A DNA stretch of 32,995 nt from Caldisericaceae bacterium. GTDB taxonomy: Bacteria > Caldisericota > Caldisericia > Caldisericales > Caldisericaceae. Positions 2,767 through 25,609 of the stretch are shown here, piece by piece (position 1 is the stretch's first letter; each line of letters begins with the position of its first letter). The stretch spans positions 1 through 32,995 of the forward strand of contig JAINCR010000066.1 in the NCBI GenBank assembly GCA_036574215.1. Reading direction: 5' to 3'. The notes under the pieces were generated by a model, which was not told the origin of the DNA, made no database searches, and saw only the letters and a list, made by a program, of their open reading frames with translations. The position numbers and the translations under genes were made by a program.

Positions 2767-3495
2767 TTAGTCAAAAGTAAAAACAACATTAACTGTCACG
2801 TTAACCTTCAATGTGCCCCCTTCAACAGGAACCGATGCTTCATTTTCTACTCCTGCAAATGATTTAAATAAAGGTATAGGATAACTAACTGATTCAATTG
2901 AGATAGTTTTAATACCAGTAACTTTGTAATTTGTGCCATTAAGTGCTGCATCTGCCTTTGCTCTTGCATTTTTCATAGCGTTTTCAATTGCTTGAAGTTT
3001 TAATTCATCCCTATTTGATGCATCAAAGACAATACCTCCAATGTTATTAACACCAGATTTTACAACAGCAGAAAGAACTTTTGAAGCTTTTTCAATTTCT
3101 GTTATTACAACAAAATCTTCAGAAGCATGGAACCCTTTGAGTTTTGATTCCCCTGTTTGTGGATTGTAATCATAAACTGGATACAGGCTAAGGTTAGATG
3201 TCTTTATCTTTTCTTTAGGTATTTTTAAATCAAGAAGCGCCTTAATAATAGCGTTTGCCTTTTTACTAAGTAAGTCCATTGCTTGTTCAGGATCAGAGTC
3301 TTCGGTAAAAATACCAAAATTTAAATTAACTATGTCAGGTATCACCTCAACTACACCTTCTCCTGTAACTGAAATAGTATGGTTAGTTGGATCGTCAGTT
3401 GCCTTAACTTCTCCTTTAGGAAGAGTTTTTCCACCAATAAAAATTACACTTAAAATTGCAATGATTACAAATAAAGCTAATAATTTTTTGTTCAT
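2767..3495 (-). CDS. Secreted or membrane-anchored SIMPL-domain (DUF541) protein
   Basis: A 242-residue protein with an N-terminal hydrophobic segment (residues 4-21) that acts as a signal peptide or anchor. A SIMPL/DUF541 domain follows, recognisable by the start 'ISVTGEGVVEVIPDIV', the middle 'LSLYPVYDYNP' segment and the C-terminal beta strands ending 'VNVTVNVVFTFD'. SIMPL proteins are periplasmic or outer-envelope proteins of poorly defined function, some linked to stress protection. GGAGGTG lies about 9 nt before the ATG. Immediately upstream is an ECF-type promoter motif (3514-3543) shared with the secreted-protein island near 20.7 kb. The gene stands alone; downstream it converges with the NrdD-tail gene. 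Confidence 0.9.
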   Translation of the reverse strand: MNKKLLALFVIIAILSVIFIGGKTLPKGEVKATDDPTNHTISVTGEGVVEVIPDIVNLNFGIFTEDSDPEQAMDLLSKKANAIIKALLDLKIPKEKIKTSNLSLYPVYDYNPQTGESKLKGFHASEDFVVITEIEKASKVLSAVVKSGVNNIGGIVFDASNRDELKLQAIENAMKNARAKADAALNGTNYKVTGIKTISIESVSYPIPLFKSFAGVENEASVPVEGGTLKVNVTVNVVFTFD

Positions 3496-3513: not shown

Positions 3514-3543
3514 ATTAGATACAAGATACACCTAAAAAGTTCC
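3514..3543 (-). promoter_or_regulatory. ECF-sigma-like promoter motif before the SIMPL gene
   Basis: Read on the minus strand: GGAACTTTTT, 11 nt, then GTATCTAAT. The same two blocks with the same 11-nt spacing occur at 20657-20686 (identical blocks) and 25296-25325 (one mismatch). The blocks match the general shape of ECF sigma promoters, with an AAC-containing -35 followed by T-runs and a CGTA/TCTAA-type -10. The -10 ends about 20 nt before the ATG, so the transcript leader would be very short, barely including the ribosome-binding site. Confidence 0.6.
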
Positions 3544-3582: not shown

Positions 3583-3608
3583 AAAAAAGGGGGTAAAATT
3601 ACCCCCTT
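3583..3608 (-). terminator. Terminator of the fatty-acid synthesis operon
   Basis: On the minus strand, the stem AAGGGGGT / ACCCCCTT (3601-3608 with 3587-3594) is followed by a T-run encoded by the A-run at 3583-3588. It lies 23 nt beyond the fabF stop codon. Confidence 0.8.
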
Positions 3609-3630
3609 CCTCCTTTAATATATAAATAGG

Positions 3631-18378: not shown

Positions 18379-18462
18379 ATTTTACCACAAATTTAATTTA
18401 TTGAAAAATTTTTTAAGAAATTTACAAAAATCTTCAAAAGAAACCCCAAAGAGTGGTAAAAT
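18379..18462. promoter_or_regulatory. Facing TGGTAAAAT boxes in a perfect 10-bp inverted pair
   Basis: ATTTTACCAC (18379-18388) and GTGGTAAAAT (18453-18462) are exact reverse complements 64 nt apart. The first reads as an extended -10 (TGGTAAAAT) for the MFS operon on the minus strand, about 20 nt before its ATG. The second would point toward the secreted-protein island. No good -35 is seen for either, and the pair could instead be a regulator site. Confidence 0.4.
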
Positions 18463-18465
18463 ATT

Positions 18466-18533
18466 GGATCCTTCGCTTTACTCAGGAAGAAGTAATTAGG
18501 GTAGCATTACTTTTCCCAGCATCAGGATGATAT
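18466..18533. repeat. REP-like element, partial copy
   Basis: GATCCTTCGCTTTACTCAGGA (in the stretch 18467-18489) matches the reverse complement of the element at 30450-30472 with about 3 mismatches in 23 nt. A second 'TCAGGATGA' lies at about 18521. The element sits just upstream of promoter module A, where copies B and D of the module instead carry the ECF-like motif. It may therefore have replaced that part by insertion or recombination. Confidence 0.55.
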
Positions 18534-18538
18534 GCTTT

Positions 18539-18650
18539 AGAAAAAACTAAAAATTCTTCCTAAAAGGTATTGACGTAAGAGAGAGTATATAATGTAGTAG
18601 AAAGGAGATGGTGTAATATGGAAGCAAAAAGGAAGGTAGATGGGTTGTGA
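18539..18650 (+). promoter_or_regulatory. Promoter/leader module, copy A (short GA spacer)
   Basis: The conserved block AAAAAACTAAAAA (from 18541) is followed by TTGACG (18570-18575), a GA-rich 12-nt spacer, TATAAT (18588-18593), AAAGGAG (18601-18607) and a 10-residue leader ORF at 18618-18650 (MEAKRKVDGL). The 12-nt spacing is too short for a normal vegetative promoter, unlike the 18 nt in copy B. From the leader ATG to the first gene is 103 nt of almost entirely purine-rich sequence. Confidence 0.6.
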
Positions 18651-20656: not shown

Positions 20657-20686
20657 GGAACTTTTTTATGATCTTACGTATCTAAT
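20657..20686 (+). promoter_or_regulatory. ECF-sigma-like promoter motif before the second island unit
   Basis: GGAACTTTTT, 11 nt, GTATCTAAT, with both blocks identical to those before the SIMPL gene at 3514-3543. The downstream sequence ATATATGAGGAAAAGGAATTTT is shared in related form with 25321 onward and 23441 onward. The motif lies about 70 nt upstream of a vegetative-type promoter (20756-20785), so unit B may have two promoters. Confidence 0.6.
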
Positions 20687-20727: not shown

Positions 20728-20808
20728 AAAAAACTAAAAATTTTCCTAAAAGGTATTGACAAGAGAGAGAGAGAGAGAGTATAATGTAGTAGAAAGGAGA
20801 TGATGTAG
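20728..20808 (+). promoter_or_regulatory. Promoter/leader module, copy B (long GA spacer)
   Basis: AAAAAACTAAAAA at 20728 is followed by TTGACA (20756-20761), an 18-nt pure AG repeat and TATAAT (20780-20785). This is a good vegetative promoter whose whole spacer is a dinucleotide microsatellite. AAAGGAG (20793-20799) and a leader ORF follow. Copy A has 12 nt and copy D has 8 nt in the same place. Confidence 0.75.
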
Positions 20809-20809
20809 T

Positions 20810-20875
20810 ATGAGGGTAAAAAAGAAAGTAGATGGGAGGTGGGAGAGAGGAAAAACTCTTATGAAAAGAAAGTAA
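20810..20875 (+). CDS. Leader ORF, 21 residues
   Basis: ATG preceded by AAAGGAG at 10-nt spacing; encodes a very basic peptide beginning MRVKKKVDG. The counterpart at 18618-18650 has 10 residues and that at 23673-23690 has 5 (MRVKK), so length is not conserved while the ribosome-binding site and first codons are. It might be a regulatory leader, a 30S-docking site that stabilises the mRNA, or the decayed start of a duplicated gene: the real gene at 20928 also begins MRVKK, with different codons. Translation is unproven. Confidence 0.35.
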   Translation: MRVKKKVDGRWERGKTLMKRK

Positions 20876-20927: not shown

Positions 20928-21818
20928 ATGAGAGTTAAAAAAATGATTATTTTGTTAGTTGTTTTTATCTTTTTGGTGGGTTTTATTCCGTTTGAGAAAA
21001 TGGTTAAGGCAGATGAAGGATACGGAGTAATTAATACAGAAAAAGGCAAAATGTATAGAGATACACACGGGAATCTATTTCCTATTATTGTTATTAACGG
21101 TAAAAAGGAAGTAAAGATCAATGAATATGAACTTGCTCCTCTTGAGGCACTTTTGGAAAGAGACGGAAAACAATCAAAAGGTAAAAGTGCATTGCCTGAA
21201 GAAATTCTTAAGAAATACTATGTTTCAAAGAATCTTTTTATAAATTCAGATTTCTCTACAACACTTCCATCAATTGTTTCATATAACCAAAGATACAAGT
21301 TATGGTGTAAGGAAAAATTAGGATTTGGCCCATCTACAATTGGAGGAGCTGGTTGTTTTCTTACTTCTTGTGCAATGATGCTTGCAACATATAACCTTAC
21401 GATAAATGGTAGTATTGTAACCCCTTTAAATTTAAACACATGGTTGAAGAATAATGGAGGTTTTAGCGGTGACAATTTAATTTTTGGTGCCATCGCAAAA
21501 TTTCCTGGGATAAGTAGTATTGGTTATTTTGATAGCTTTAATGACGCAGCAATTGCCATTTTCTATCGGATAGTTCCAATTTTACGTATGACACCTTCAC
21601 ATTTTGCTCCATTGGTAAAAACTAATGGAGAAAGAAATAGAAAGACTAATTGGATCATGAATACATACAGTAGAGATTACAACTATGATTATAATAATCC
21701 CGGTTATCGGATTTATGCACCATATGATGGAAAGACTCCTTACTACCAAACAGTAGAAGAAAGTGGATATGATTTTGCAAGTTCATCCGTATTTAGAACT
21801 GCTTACCCACAACAATAA
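20928..21818 (+). CDS. Secreted C39-like (papain-fold) cysteine peptidase
   Basis: A 296-residue protein with a signal peptide (MRVKK, hydrophobic 6-20, cleavage near VKADE). From residue 118 it follows the peptidase-C39-like pattern: 'YNQRYKLW' with oxyanion Gln121, 'TIGGAGCFLTSCAMML' with nucleophile Cys143, and 'SHFAPLVKTNG' with His225. The third residue, usually Asp in a 'DP' motif, is less clear here ('IMNTYSRDY', Asn245 or Asp250). AAGGAGG has ideal spacing to the ATG. It is the first gene of unit B, behind both the ECF-like and the GA-spacer promoters. The substrate could be a wall peptide or a leader peptide; neither is shown. Confidence 0.8.
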   Translation: MRVKKMIILLVVFIFLVGFIPFEKMVKADEGYGVINTEKGKMYRDTHGNLFPIIVINGKKEVKINEYELAPLEALLERDGKQSKGKSALPEEILKKYYVSKNLFINSDFSTTLPSIVSYNQRYKLWCKEKLGFGPSTIGGAGCFLTSCAMMLATYNLTINGSIVTPLNLNTWLKNNGGFSGDNLIFGAIAKFPGISSIGYFDSFNDAAIAIFYRIVPILRMTPSHFAPLVKTNGERNRKTNWIMNTYSRDYNYDYNNPGYRIYAPYDGKTPYYQTVEESGYDFASSSVFRTAYPQQ

Positions 21819-21837
21819 TAGTTTTTATGAGAAGAGT

Positions 21838-23244
21838 ATGAGAAGAGTTGTAGTAATATTATTAATATTGTTTTTTATATTATTATCTCAAGGTTGTGAT
21901 AAATCAACACATACTTCTGTCCCTGTTTTTTATGGTCAATACTGTAATGCTCAACGCACATCCTACCGAGATGTTGAAGGATTAAAAGAACTTCCTAACA
22001 AAGTATCATGGCAATATACACTTACCGAAGCAGATGAAATTTTTTTTATCACAATGGATGCTCCTACTGTTGAAGAGAACAGAGTGTTTATGGTAAGTGG
22101 TAGTATAATGAGTTGCGTTGATTTAGATACAGGGAAAGAAATTTGGAGAAAGAGTTATCCGGATCCTTTCCCTCCTTTTTCTGAGTTTAATTATTCGCCA
22201 GTTGTTTATGAAGACAAATTGATTGTTGTTGAAGGTTTTCCTGCTGCTCAATACCTTGCCGCATTTGATAAAAATACAGGAGAGTTACTCTGGAAAAGCG
22301 AACTCATTGGTAATATGGAAGTAAACGACACATCACGTCACCCGTTGATCATTAATGGAAAGATTTACCTTGCAGCATCAAGTGCAGAGAGTTATAAGAA
22401 AAATAAAGATGCACAGGCTGGTATATGGGTTTGGGATATAGAAACAGGGGAAGTTTTGGATAAGATATTTATAGAGCCTGTAGCAGAACCAGTCGTTGGG
22501 AAGTATCGCTCAATGTTTCCCGTATCAGTGGCTCTTGCAGCAGACGGTTCAGACATCTACGGAGTTACACAGTTCACTAATGATAGCACATACCGGACTT
22601 ATATATTCTCTTATGATACTCTAAGAAAAAAATTTACATGGTTTGAACCAGTTGGCGAAGAAGGCTTTAGATCTCCTGGTTATAGAGCACAAATTGCAGT
22701 AGATAACAACTTTGTTGCTGTAGGTATGGTTGGAGACCAGTGGGGTGAACCTGAGCCTCAATTCTTCATTAAAGTTTTTGATAAGACTTCGCATAAGCCG
22801 TTGTGGCAAAACATTTCAGAGACTAGTAGAGAATTAAACCCTGTATTTACTATTTCACATTTAGCTATTCATAATGGGAAGCTCTATGCGATGACTATGG
22901 ATAAAAGATTAGCTTGTTTCAATATTGAGACAGGAGAAATAGTATGGAGTTTTAAAGATAAGGATTGGCAGAGCAACTGGTGGAACACTTGGAATAAAGA
23001 TGAAAATCGTTTTAGAGAACACGATATAGTTATTTCAAAGGATGTTGTTTATTTTAATGTAGATAAGGCAATTTATGCATTCGATACAGAAGCAGGAAAA
23101 TTATTATGGCGCAAGGTAGTTAAGAAAGGACATAGTTTTATTAACATGATGCCTGTGGATAATGGTTTAATAGTGCGTTATCAAGATAACCGTGCTGGGT
23201 ATGACATGCCTCAGGAGCCTTCTGTCGCTGAACTATGGAAGTAA
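21838..23244 (+). CDS. Lipoprotein with PQQ-type beta-propeller repeats
   Basis: A 468-residue lipoprotein. The lipobox LSQGC puts the lipidated Cys at residue 20 when the ATG at 21838 is used; a longer in-frame start at 21763 would bury the signal peptide. The body contains repeated 'Y.FD..TG...W' blades of the PQQ/pyrrolo-quinoline-like propeller: 'LAAFDKNTGELLWKS', 'LACFNIETGEIVWSF', 'IYAFDTEAGKLLWRK'. Propellers of this kind (BamB-like) serve as scaffolds, or as dehydrogenases if PQQ is bound; no dehydrogenase motifs are visible. The start codon lies in an 11-bp tandem duplication (21827-21848). Confidence 0.88.
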   Translation: MRRVVVILLILFFILLSQGCDKSTHTSVPVFYGQYCNAQRTSYRDVEGLKELPNKVSWQYTLTEADEIFFITMDAPTVEENRVFMVSGSIMSCVDLDTGKEIWRKSYPDPFPPFSEFNYSPVVYEDKLIVVEGFPAAQYLAAFDKNTGELLWKSELIGNMEVNDTSRHPLIINGKIYLAASSAESYKKNKDAQAGIWVWDIETGEVLDKIFIEPVAEPVVGKYRSMFPVSVALAADGSDIYGVTQFTNDSTYRTYIFSYDTLRKKFTWFEPVGEEGFRSPGYRAQIAVDNNFVAVGMVGDQWGEPEPQFFIKVFDKTSHKPLWQNISETSRELNPVFTISHLAIHNGKLYAMTMDKRLACFNIETGEIVWSFKDKDWQSNWWNTWNKDENRFREHDIVISKDVVYFNVDKAIYAFDTEAGKLLWRKVVKKGHSFINMMPVDNGLIVRYQDNRAGYDMPQEPSVAELWK

Positions 23245-23413: not shown

Positions 23414-23580
23414 TTTGGAACTTTTTGAGTTTGAGAGTCCAATATATGAGAAGAAAAAATTTTTAAAAATTCTCTGAAAAATTGGGAACAAATTTCCAAA
23501 TTCTTAGGTCTTATTGTATGAGAAGAAAAAAATTTAAAAATTTTTTCAAAATCGTGGGAAAATTTTTTAGGATTTGGAAC
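23414..23580 (+). repeat. Tandem degenerate copies of the ECF-motif region, about 72-nt period
   Basis: GGAACTTTTT...GAGTCCAATATATGAGAAG (from 23417), GGGAACA...TCTTATTGTATGAGAAG (from 23484) and TTTGGAACATAATCTAAT (about 23573) are successive, decayed versions of the GGAAC / TATCTAAT / TATGAG-AAAA series. 'TATGAGAAGAAAAAA' recurs at 23445 and 23517, a 72-nt period. In the first copy the spacing between blocks is 3 nt shorter than in the intact motifs. The rest of the 23245-23765 gap holds a small GAGGAT / ATCCTC hairpin at 23596-23614. Confidence 0.55.
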
Positions 23581-23649: not shown

Positions 23650-23690
23650 TTAGAGAAAGGAGGCGGTGTAATATGAGGGTAAAAAAGTAG
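23650..23690 (+). promoter_or_regulatory. Leader module, copy C (no clear promoter boxes)
   Basis: AGAGAAAGGAGGCGGTGTAAT (within 23652-23672) followed by ATG and the five-residue ORF MRVKK-stop (23673-23690) aligns with the leaders at 18598-18650 and 20789-20875. So does the next 60 nt of purine-rich sequence. The TTGAC / TATAAT part found in copies A and B is not recognisable here. It is 93 nt upstream of the amidase-like gene. Confidence 0.55.
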
Positions 23691-23765: not shown

Positions 23766-24671
23766 ATGAAAAAAAGATTGATTTTATCCGTTTTAGTTCT
23801 GGTTTTGTTGTTTAGTACATTTAGTATAAAAGTTTTTTCAGCAGATGATTACACCATCGGCAAGCGGGAGATTACAAGATACATTGATTCCAAAGGACTT
23901 AATCTAAAAGAGGGTACTCCTGAATATTTTGATTTTTTGAATAACTTACTGTGGGGTGAGTATAACAAAGATTTACAAAATTCACCATACTTCAGGAAAA
24001 TTGTTAAATATGCTGCATATTACTATGCACACCCAGAAATCCTATATCCTGCACAATGCAAAGATCGTTTAGATGATATCATCACCAATAATAACACCAA
24101 GAGTACTACATGGGTATACAATCCATCCTTAGCTGTGAACTATGCCTATCAGTATTCGATTGAGGGTGGCAAAGGCCAAAATCCAGATTTTCCTGATTTT
24201 AGGAACAAAGGTGGTGACTGCACTAATTTTGCAAGTCGGGTGGTGAATGCAGGAAAAGTTCCAATTGATGGGAGTGGTACTTGTTCAAGCTATTCAACTA
24301 TTACAAAATGGTATGTAAACAGAGCACAATGGTGGTGCTTACAATCAAGATGGGCATGGTCTACTTCTTGGTCTATTGTAGGAGATTTCTATACATATCA
24401 AAGCCAGTACAAAAATAACGCCACCTCTTCAGTATTTGGAATAAGTCAAATTAATTCTCTGAGAGCTTCTGCTGTTCCAGGTGATGTTATCCAACTCGAA
24501 ACTGGTGGGAGTAAATGGCATTCACTAATAGTAACCAAAAAACAAAATGGAGAAACATATTTGACTTATCACTCTGGCCCTAATGGTTATGATTGTGTTG
24601 ACCATTCCTTACAGTCAATAATTAATGGTCATAGCATTATTGACCACTTTTACCTTTTGCATTTCCACTAA
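23766..24671 (+). CDS. Secreted amidase-domain protein (Amidase_6 type cysteine hydrolase)
   Basis: A 301-residue protein with a signal peptide (MKKR, hydrophobic 5-24, cleavage after VFSA). From residue 120 it shows the Amidase_6 pattern: 'NPSLAVNYAYQYSIEGG', then 'FRNKGGDCTNFASRVVNAG' with candidate nucleophile Cys152, a 'W.Y....W' aromatic stretch, and 'SKWHSLIVTKK' with candidate His252. These domains occur in secreted firmicute-type proteins and are thought to cleave amide bonds of wall or peptide substrates. GAGG precedes the ATG. It is the first gene of unit C. Extra cysteines (98, 173, 191, 277) could form disulfides. Confidence 0.85.
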   Translation: MKKRLILSVLVLVLLFSTFSIKVFSADDYTIGKREITRYIDSKGLNLKEGTPEYFDFLNNLLWGEYNKDLQNSPYFRKIVKYAAYYYAHPEILYPAQCKDRLDDIITNNNTKSTTWVYNPSLAVNYAYQYSIEGGKGQNPDFPDFRNKGGDCTNFASRVVNAGKVPIDGSGTCSSYSTITKWYVNRAQWWCLQSRWAWSTSWSIVGDFYTYQSQYKNNATSSVFGISQINSLRASAVPGDVIQLETGGSKWHSLIVTKKQNGETYLTYHSGPNGYDCVDHSLQSIINGHSIIDHFYLLHFH

Positions 24672-25295: not shown

Positions 25296-25325
25296 AGAAC
25301 TTTTTTATAAGTTTACGTATCTAAT
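25296..25325 (+). promoter_or_regulatory. ECF-sigma-like motif, orphan copy
   Basis: AGAACTTTTT, 11 nt, GTATCTAAT: one mismatch to the motifs at 3514-3543 and 20657-20686. The region 25296-25420 aligns along most of its length with 20657-20785, which makes it a duplicated promoter region. No intact gene follows it. Confidence 0.5.
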
Positions 25326-25370: not shown

Positions 25371-25418
25371 AAAAAACTAAAAAATCTTCTTAAAAGTATT
25401 GACGGAAGAGAGTAAAAT
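25371..25418 (+). promoter_or_regulatory. Promoter module, copy D (shortest GA spacer), orphan
   Basis: AAAAAACTAAAAA at 25371, TTGACG (25399-25404), an 8-nt GA-rich spacer, TAAAAT (25413-25418). The spacing is too short for activity as a standard promoter. The leader ORF part is missing. Confidence 0.5.
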
Positions 25419-25420
25419 AA

Positions 25421-25609
25421 GTTGTCTCTCTTTTCTTCTTTTATCTCATTATAACAGGTGGAACAATATTACTTTTTCCTCTGTTTCTATTTGAAGGCTT
25501 AATTAGTATGTTTATATTGGCTTTCCCCTACTTTGAAATGCCTCTTATTTTTTCAGGCATACTTGCATATGTCTACATAAAGAAGATTTCTAAGAAGTCT
25601 TCTCATTGA
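25421..25609 (+). pseudogene. Remnant of a membrane-protein gene
   Basis: An open frame of 62 codons with no standard start before the ATG at 25508. It encodes two hydrophobic segments and a basic end (KKISKKSSH). It follows the orphan promoter copy and looks like the 3' end of a gene whose start was lost, possibly by the duplication that left module D. If the ATG at 25508 were used, it would be a 33-residue membrane peptide. The perfect ribosome-binding sequence GAGGAGGTGAT directly after the stop (25608-25618) has no proper start codon after it. Confidence 0.3.

Follow-up and report, generated by a model that had tools for sequence, protein, structure and literature searches.

The DNA analysed here, a window of 32,995 nucleotides from a hot-spring bacterium of the Caldisericaceae, raises the question of why one 30-nt element should stand both ahead of a gene for an envelope protein and ahead of an island of secreted proteins, and which factor might read it. 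Matches to GGAACTTTTT-N11-GTATCTAAT are exact at 3514-3543 (minus strand) and 20657-20686 (plus strand) and carry one mismatch at 25296-25325 (plus strand), with the same box-to-box spacing at all three sites and no further match in the window at up to three mismatches. Three sites compare with a chance expectation of 0.03, and none of 100 shuffles reached that number. The sites and their identical spacing are therefore as an earlier note on this DNA had described them, and a fourth, degenerate copy at 23417-23442 lies beyond the three first listed. Our reading is that the element is very probably the core promoter recognised by an ECF sigma factor of RpoE/AlgU-like type, whose gene lies on contig C22 of the same genome, and that it serves an envelope regulon together with feedback on the anti-sigma gene. 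The sites in the window are as follows.

3514-3543, minus strand: predicted ECF promoter of the SIMPL gene (-35 GGAACTT, -10 TCTAA), exact motif, conserved before SIMPL orthologues
20657-20686, plus strand: predicted ECF promoter P1 of the C39-like unit, exact motif, the intact copy of a duplicated upstream module
23417-23442, plus strand: decayed ECF site upstream of the amidase unit, reading GGAACTTTTT-N10-GTCCAAT, with a module-like downstream flank
25296-25325, plus strand: orphan ECF site and module copy, one mismatch, flanks homologous to those at 20657

The element consists of a -35 GGAACTT with a T-run and a -10 TCTAA lying within GTATCTAAT, separated by a 17-nt gap. As the earlier note had also remarked, the flanks of the first site differ from those of the others: the surroundings of the 3514 site are unrelated to those at 20657 and 25296, which are homologous to each other over more than 100 bp. 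These latter two were therefore counted as one duplicated module, and the window alone provides two independent cases only. More than 100 bp of the same flank recurs at sites on contigs C46, C79 and C51, from which we conclude that all five copies have one origin, so that the independent occurrences in the window genome are the SIMPL gene, the anti-sigma gene and the module. The genes and signals around the window sites are listed below.

2767-3495, minus strand: SIMPL (DUF541) protein with an N-terminal signal/anchor, putative regulon member (PF04402, E 8.6e-48)
3583-3612, minus strand: intrinsic terminator closing the fab operon upstream, directly before the ECF site (terminator scan)
20810-20875, plus strand: mini-ORF (MRVKKKVDGR...) with a ribosome site in the leader of the C39-like unit, read from the sequence
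20928-21818, plus strand: secreted C39-like protein with a signal sequence and a weak Peptidase_C39_2 match below cut-off
21829-23244, plus strand: beta-propeller lipoprotein of PQQ/BamB type, encoded second in the C39-like unit (PQQ_2, E 2.2e-20)
23766-24671, plus strand: secreted Amidase_6 protein (PF12671, E 3.5e-23)

The 3514 site stands 19 nt ahead of the SIMPL gene. The 20657 site is preceded by a GC-rich inverted repeat, read from the sequence, which closes the previous unit and is absent from the list produced by the strict terminator scan. Leader mini-ORFs with ribosome sites similar to that of the C39-like unit occur at 18618-18650 (MEAKRKVDGL) and at about 23673-23690 in the amidase leader (MRVKK), and MRVKK resembles the N-terminus with which the C39-like protein itself begins. 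The amidase signal peptide gave weak hits to NCBIfam models of Shiga toxin B, which fall far below cut-off and are meaningless.

Within the duplicated module, the ECF site is followed after about 70 nt by TTGAC-(AG)n-TATAAT, a ribosome site and often a mini-ORF (MRVKK...). Three copies of the TTGAC-(AG)n-TATAAT part in the window are relevant.

18570-18593, plus strand: P2-like element of the 18.6 kb secreted unit, where the ECF site is lost and only the downstream half of the module is kept
20756-20785, plus strand: predicted sigma-70-type promoter P2, TTGACA-18-TATAAT with an (AG)n spacer
25399-25418, plus strand: P2-like remnant of the orphan module, TTGACG-8-TAAAAT

This second element offers the alternative that survives best, namely that the working promoter of the secreted island is P2, phase-varied by its (AG)n spacer, with the ECF site secondary. 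Some 100 nt separate P2 from the 20657 ECF site upstream of it, and P2 agrees with the sigma-70 consensus at 12 of 12 positions with an 18-nt spacer, and the 18.6 kb unit has retained P2 while losing P1. The AG spacer is 8, 8, 12 and 16 nt long in other P2-like copies of the window genome, and in the single-contig genome G004 two otherwise identical copies (L121 and L123) have spacers of 30 and 40 nt, a difference of five AG units. Such differences in AG number are a signature of slippage, and to judge from assemblies only the island could be phase-variable. Many copies, however, have an 8-nt spacer that is incompatible with sigma-70 and yet persist, P1 is intact at 20657, and the alternative does not extend to the SIMPL gene or the anti-sigma gene, so we regard a merely secondary role for the ECF site as rather unlikely even for the island. 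Two further features of the module copies were noted. Another interspersed repeat (CACCGCATGCAGTCATCCTTCGC...), present also at about 18460-18530 of the window, has inserted in the copies on C79 (L005) and C51 (L022), where it parts the ECF site from the gene. Behind the orphan module, positions 25400-25600 hold a membrane-protein-like frame of about 57 residues that does not have the usual start codon and is apparently a gene remnant.

The candidate reader of the element lies outside the window, which encodes no sigma factor, as had been said before. The window genome (1.31 Mb in 109 contigs, genus Caldisericum) has four Sigma70_r2 matches, and the relevant one is an ECF sigma gene at 11818-12336 of C22. 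Its 172-aa product has the Sigma70_r2 and r4_2 regions only and scores above the TIGR02937 cut-off; the ECF sigma of this genome is 91% identical to one from Caldisericum exile. The sigma gene is followed by 19 nt, the motif, 6 nt and then the gene for a 202-aa protein with a single transmembrane segment. The sigma factor has its best solved relatives in AlgU/SigH of P. aeruginosa (6in7) and sigma-E of E. coli (1or7). Against the curated RpoE model TIGR02939 it reaches 102 bits where 236 are required, and we therefore describe it as RpoE-like and do not file it as RpoE. In E. coli sigma-E, residues R171, S172 and R176 contact the GGAACTT -35 (G-35, G-34 and C-31; PMC3397946), and in the alignment these positions are K/R, S and R in 16 of 16 sigma orthologues of the family.

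The one-transmembrane protein is encoded directly downstream of sigma in 17 genomes. RseA_N matches were obtained for 8 of 17 anti-sigma orthologues, all of them weak (best E 1.1e-4), and for the copy encoded in the window genome itself no Pfam match is significant. The AlphaFold model of the anti-sigma (pTM 0.41) has helices on the cytoplasmic side, one long membrane-crossing helix and an outer alpha/beta domain that is predicted confidently (pLDDT about 90; L011:4392-5000). Neither a structure search of the PDB with the model nor a PDB profile search returned anything significant, and the outer domain, as modelled, may be a new sensor domain. An RseP-like protein with a PDZ domain and an HEFGH motif is encoded on C37. 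Judged by their sequences, the two proteins of the C22 locus probably work like RpoE and RseA.

The window genome has a second ECF sigma gene on contig C49, and overlapping specificities are common among ECF sigma factors, which makes it conceivable that the C49 factor, or both factors, read these promoters. This is improbable: the site lies within the C22 sigma/anti-sigma locus across the family, the C22 factor is nearest to sigma-E/AlgU, whose -35 is GGAACTT, and G009, the one family genome without sites when searched for the GTCTAA form, also lacks a close C22 orthologue (its sigma match is only 33%, and it has no SIMPL match).

We return to the C22 factor and to the distribution of its putative sites, which a genome scan at up to one mismatch placed on C22, C46, C79 and C51 in addition to the three window sites; the reversed-pattern control, run with exact patterns, gave 0. 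Sites with two or three mismatches in this genome are mostly chance (controls of 4 and 8), and one of them, the two-mismatch site on C103, lies inside a gene. Across five Caldisericum genomes, 34 sites were found when at most one mismatch was allowed; the control, for which two were allowed, gave 4. Each genome has 3-12 copies of the element, nearly all ahead of genes for exported, lipoprotein or membrane-anchored products. The GTCTAA variant gave 41 sites against 1 in the control, and outside the family none of 31 genomes of this class had a GTCTAA-type site. The sites on C79 and C51 and at 25296 have no gene nearby. Hits were neither randomly scattered nor concentrated in coding regions, the only coding hits in the genus being two weak sites with two mismatches.

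The genes behind the sites share a pronounced bias, as a strongly hydrophobic N-terminus is found in 36 of 36 scored genes compared with 11 of 32 window genes; orthologues and module copies are counted among the 36, which makes the nominal p-value smaller than it should be but leaves the direction of the bias plain. In Caldisericum the putative targets include SIMPL, which is one in each of the five genomes and is joined in G004 by a second SIMPL, as well as the anti-sigma gene, a polysaccharide deacetylase, a DUF4349 protein and several lipoproteins, among them a Gmad2/GerMN protein; in other genera they include SIMPL, PEGA, SurA_N, Cu_amine_oxidN1 and DUF3160 proteins. Sites thus stand both ahead of such genes and ahead of the gene for the anti-sigma in an ECF pair, which lends support to the shared envelope-stress regulon that the earlier note had suggested, and that now appears very probable from the genomic pattern.

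That the sites are merely parts of an interspersed repeat family, alike through duplication and not through regulation, would fit the flank of more than 100 bp common to 20657, 25296, C46, C79 and C51. It is very improbable as a general explanation: the SIMPL and anti-sigma sites have flanks of unrelated sequence, which refutes it there, and from genus to genus the boxes are conserved with a free spacer between them.

The promoter reading gains further from conservation at the sigma locus itself. Of 18 family genomes, 17 have the element between the sigma and anti-sigma genes; G017, which belongs to the 17, has a -35 mismatch, AGAAC, and its site was caught only once that base was relaxed. The sequence between the two boxes varies freely among genomes, and the site lies 3' of the sigma stop codon in Caldisericum whereas it overlaps the last codons of sigma in g2, g5, g7 and g9; this free spacer and shifting position argue that conservation acts on a DNA element and not on a peptide. 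SIMPL genes are preceded by the site in 11 genomes of six genera, those without it being in G005 (at a contig end), in G012 and in one paralogue group of g7. That the stretch before the anti-sigma gene instead serves translational coupling, as a mini-ORF that is translated (MELF...) or as coding sequence of sigma, is scarcely credible: a short ORF overlapping the anti-sigma start is possible in Caldisericum and G007 and the stretch overlaps the sigma 3' end in g5, g7 and g9, but in other genera the frame runs into a stop (G011) or is shifted (28 versus 29 nt) and so is not kept, and these boxes also stand ahead of unrelated genes.

The promoter has drifted between genera. Caldisericum sites end in GTATCTAA and those of other genera mostly in GTCTAA, a form with only two hits in all five Caldisericum genomes. 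From GGAACTT to TCTAA, Caldisericum sites have a gap of 17 nt, as do nearly all sites in g3, g4 and g8; the gap is 16 nt in g5, g7 and g9, with 15 at the g5 SIMPL sites and 16 at the g2 anti-sigma site. The sigma stretch from WLYRI to REII is 54-56 residues long in the 17-nt set (g1, g4 and g8 measured) and 61-63 in the 16-nt set. The 16-nt genomes form one clade in the sigma tree (support 91/96) and thus amount to one correlated change, which is suggestive and no statistical proof. Tentatively, and as a possibility that we would not favour on balance, the promoters may have been rewritten together within the family, with sigma linker and promoter spacing co-evolving regulon-wide, and the sigma-70 member of the island's tandem promoters, with its unstable (AG)n spacer, may phase-vary.

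The sequence elements, the sigma/anti-sigma neighbourhood, its conservation and the bias of the targets are direct observations from these genomes, and they are consistent with a mechanism in which the RseA-like one-transmembrane anti-sigma, encoded just behind the sigma gene, would hold sigma at the membrane. Envelope stress would free it, presumably by regulated proteolysis in which the RseP-like protease could take part, and free sigma would then bring RNA polymerase to the sites, where transcription of SIMPL, the C39-like and other secreted proteins, and lipoproteins would begin. The motif before the anti-sigma gene suggests autoregulation through the shared promoter, in which sigma would also transcribe its own anti-sigma gene and so generate negative feedback.

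A literature search found no account of sigma factors in Caldisericum or Caldisericota. These bacteria would gain a concrete envelope-stress regulon with a predicted sigma factor, anti-sigma, promoter and target list. The conserved and poorly explained SIMPL proteins, along with DUF4349, DUF3160 and PEGA-domain proteins, become tied to a likely envelope-stress response, and the genus-by-genus shift of -10 and spacing across the regulon constitutes a natural data set on joint change of sigma and promoter.

Among known systems, the earlier comparison with SigW/SigX-type promoters holds for the general ECF layout, which B. subtilis SigW, SigX and SigM promoters share together with AAC in the -35, but not for the type. 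The -10 of SigW is of the CGTA kind; the sites described here have neither this nor a TGAAAC-type -35 and read GGAACTT and TCTAA. The B. subtilis SigW -35 is ATTGAAACCTTT, and GGAACTT is an RpoE target where ATTGAAAC is a SigW target (PMC8103513). Thermoanaerobacter tengcongensis Tt-RpoE1 likewise comes from a thermophile and is an ECF sigma whose gene is followed directly by that of its anti-sigma, but its -35 is tGTTAC and its -10 is GC-rich (PMC3397946). Nearest by sigma sequence are E. coli sigma-E (RpoE)/RseA and P. aeruginosa AlgU/MucA, which have the GGAACTT -35 with matching contact residues; their promoter, GGAACTT-N16/17-TCTAA, is the best match to the Caldisericum element in its TCTAA-like -10 and its gap of 16-17 nt. 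The -10 is TCAAA in E. coli and TCTAA in the meningococcus (PMC2893595). Common to these systems and ours are an RseA-like one-transmembrane anti-sigma encoded downstream, envelope targets and apparent feedback on the anti-sigma gene. Caldisericum differs in belonging to another phylum, in a sigma factor far under the curated RpoE cut-off, in a promoter placed between the sigma and anti-sigma genes with none seen ahead of the sigma gene, and in its long T-run after GGAAC, its GTATCTAAT -10, its target set and a novel outer anti-sigma domain. The element thus adds to a known kind of ECF promoter, nearest to that of sigma-E/AlgU, and the more novel features are the regulon-wide drift of the promoter and the variable AG spacer.
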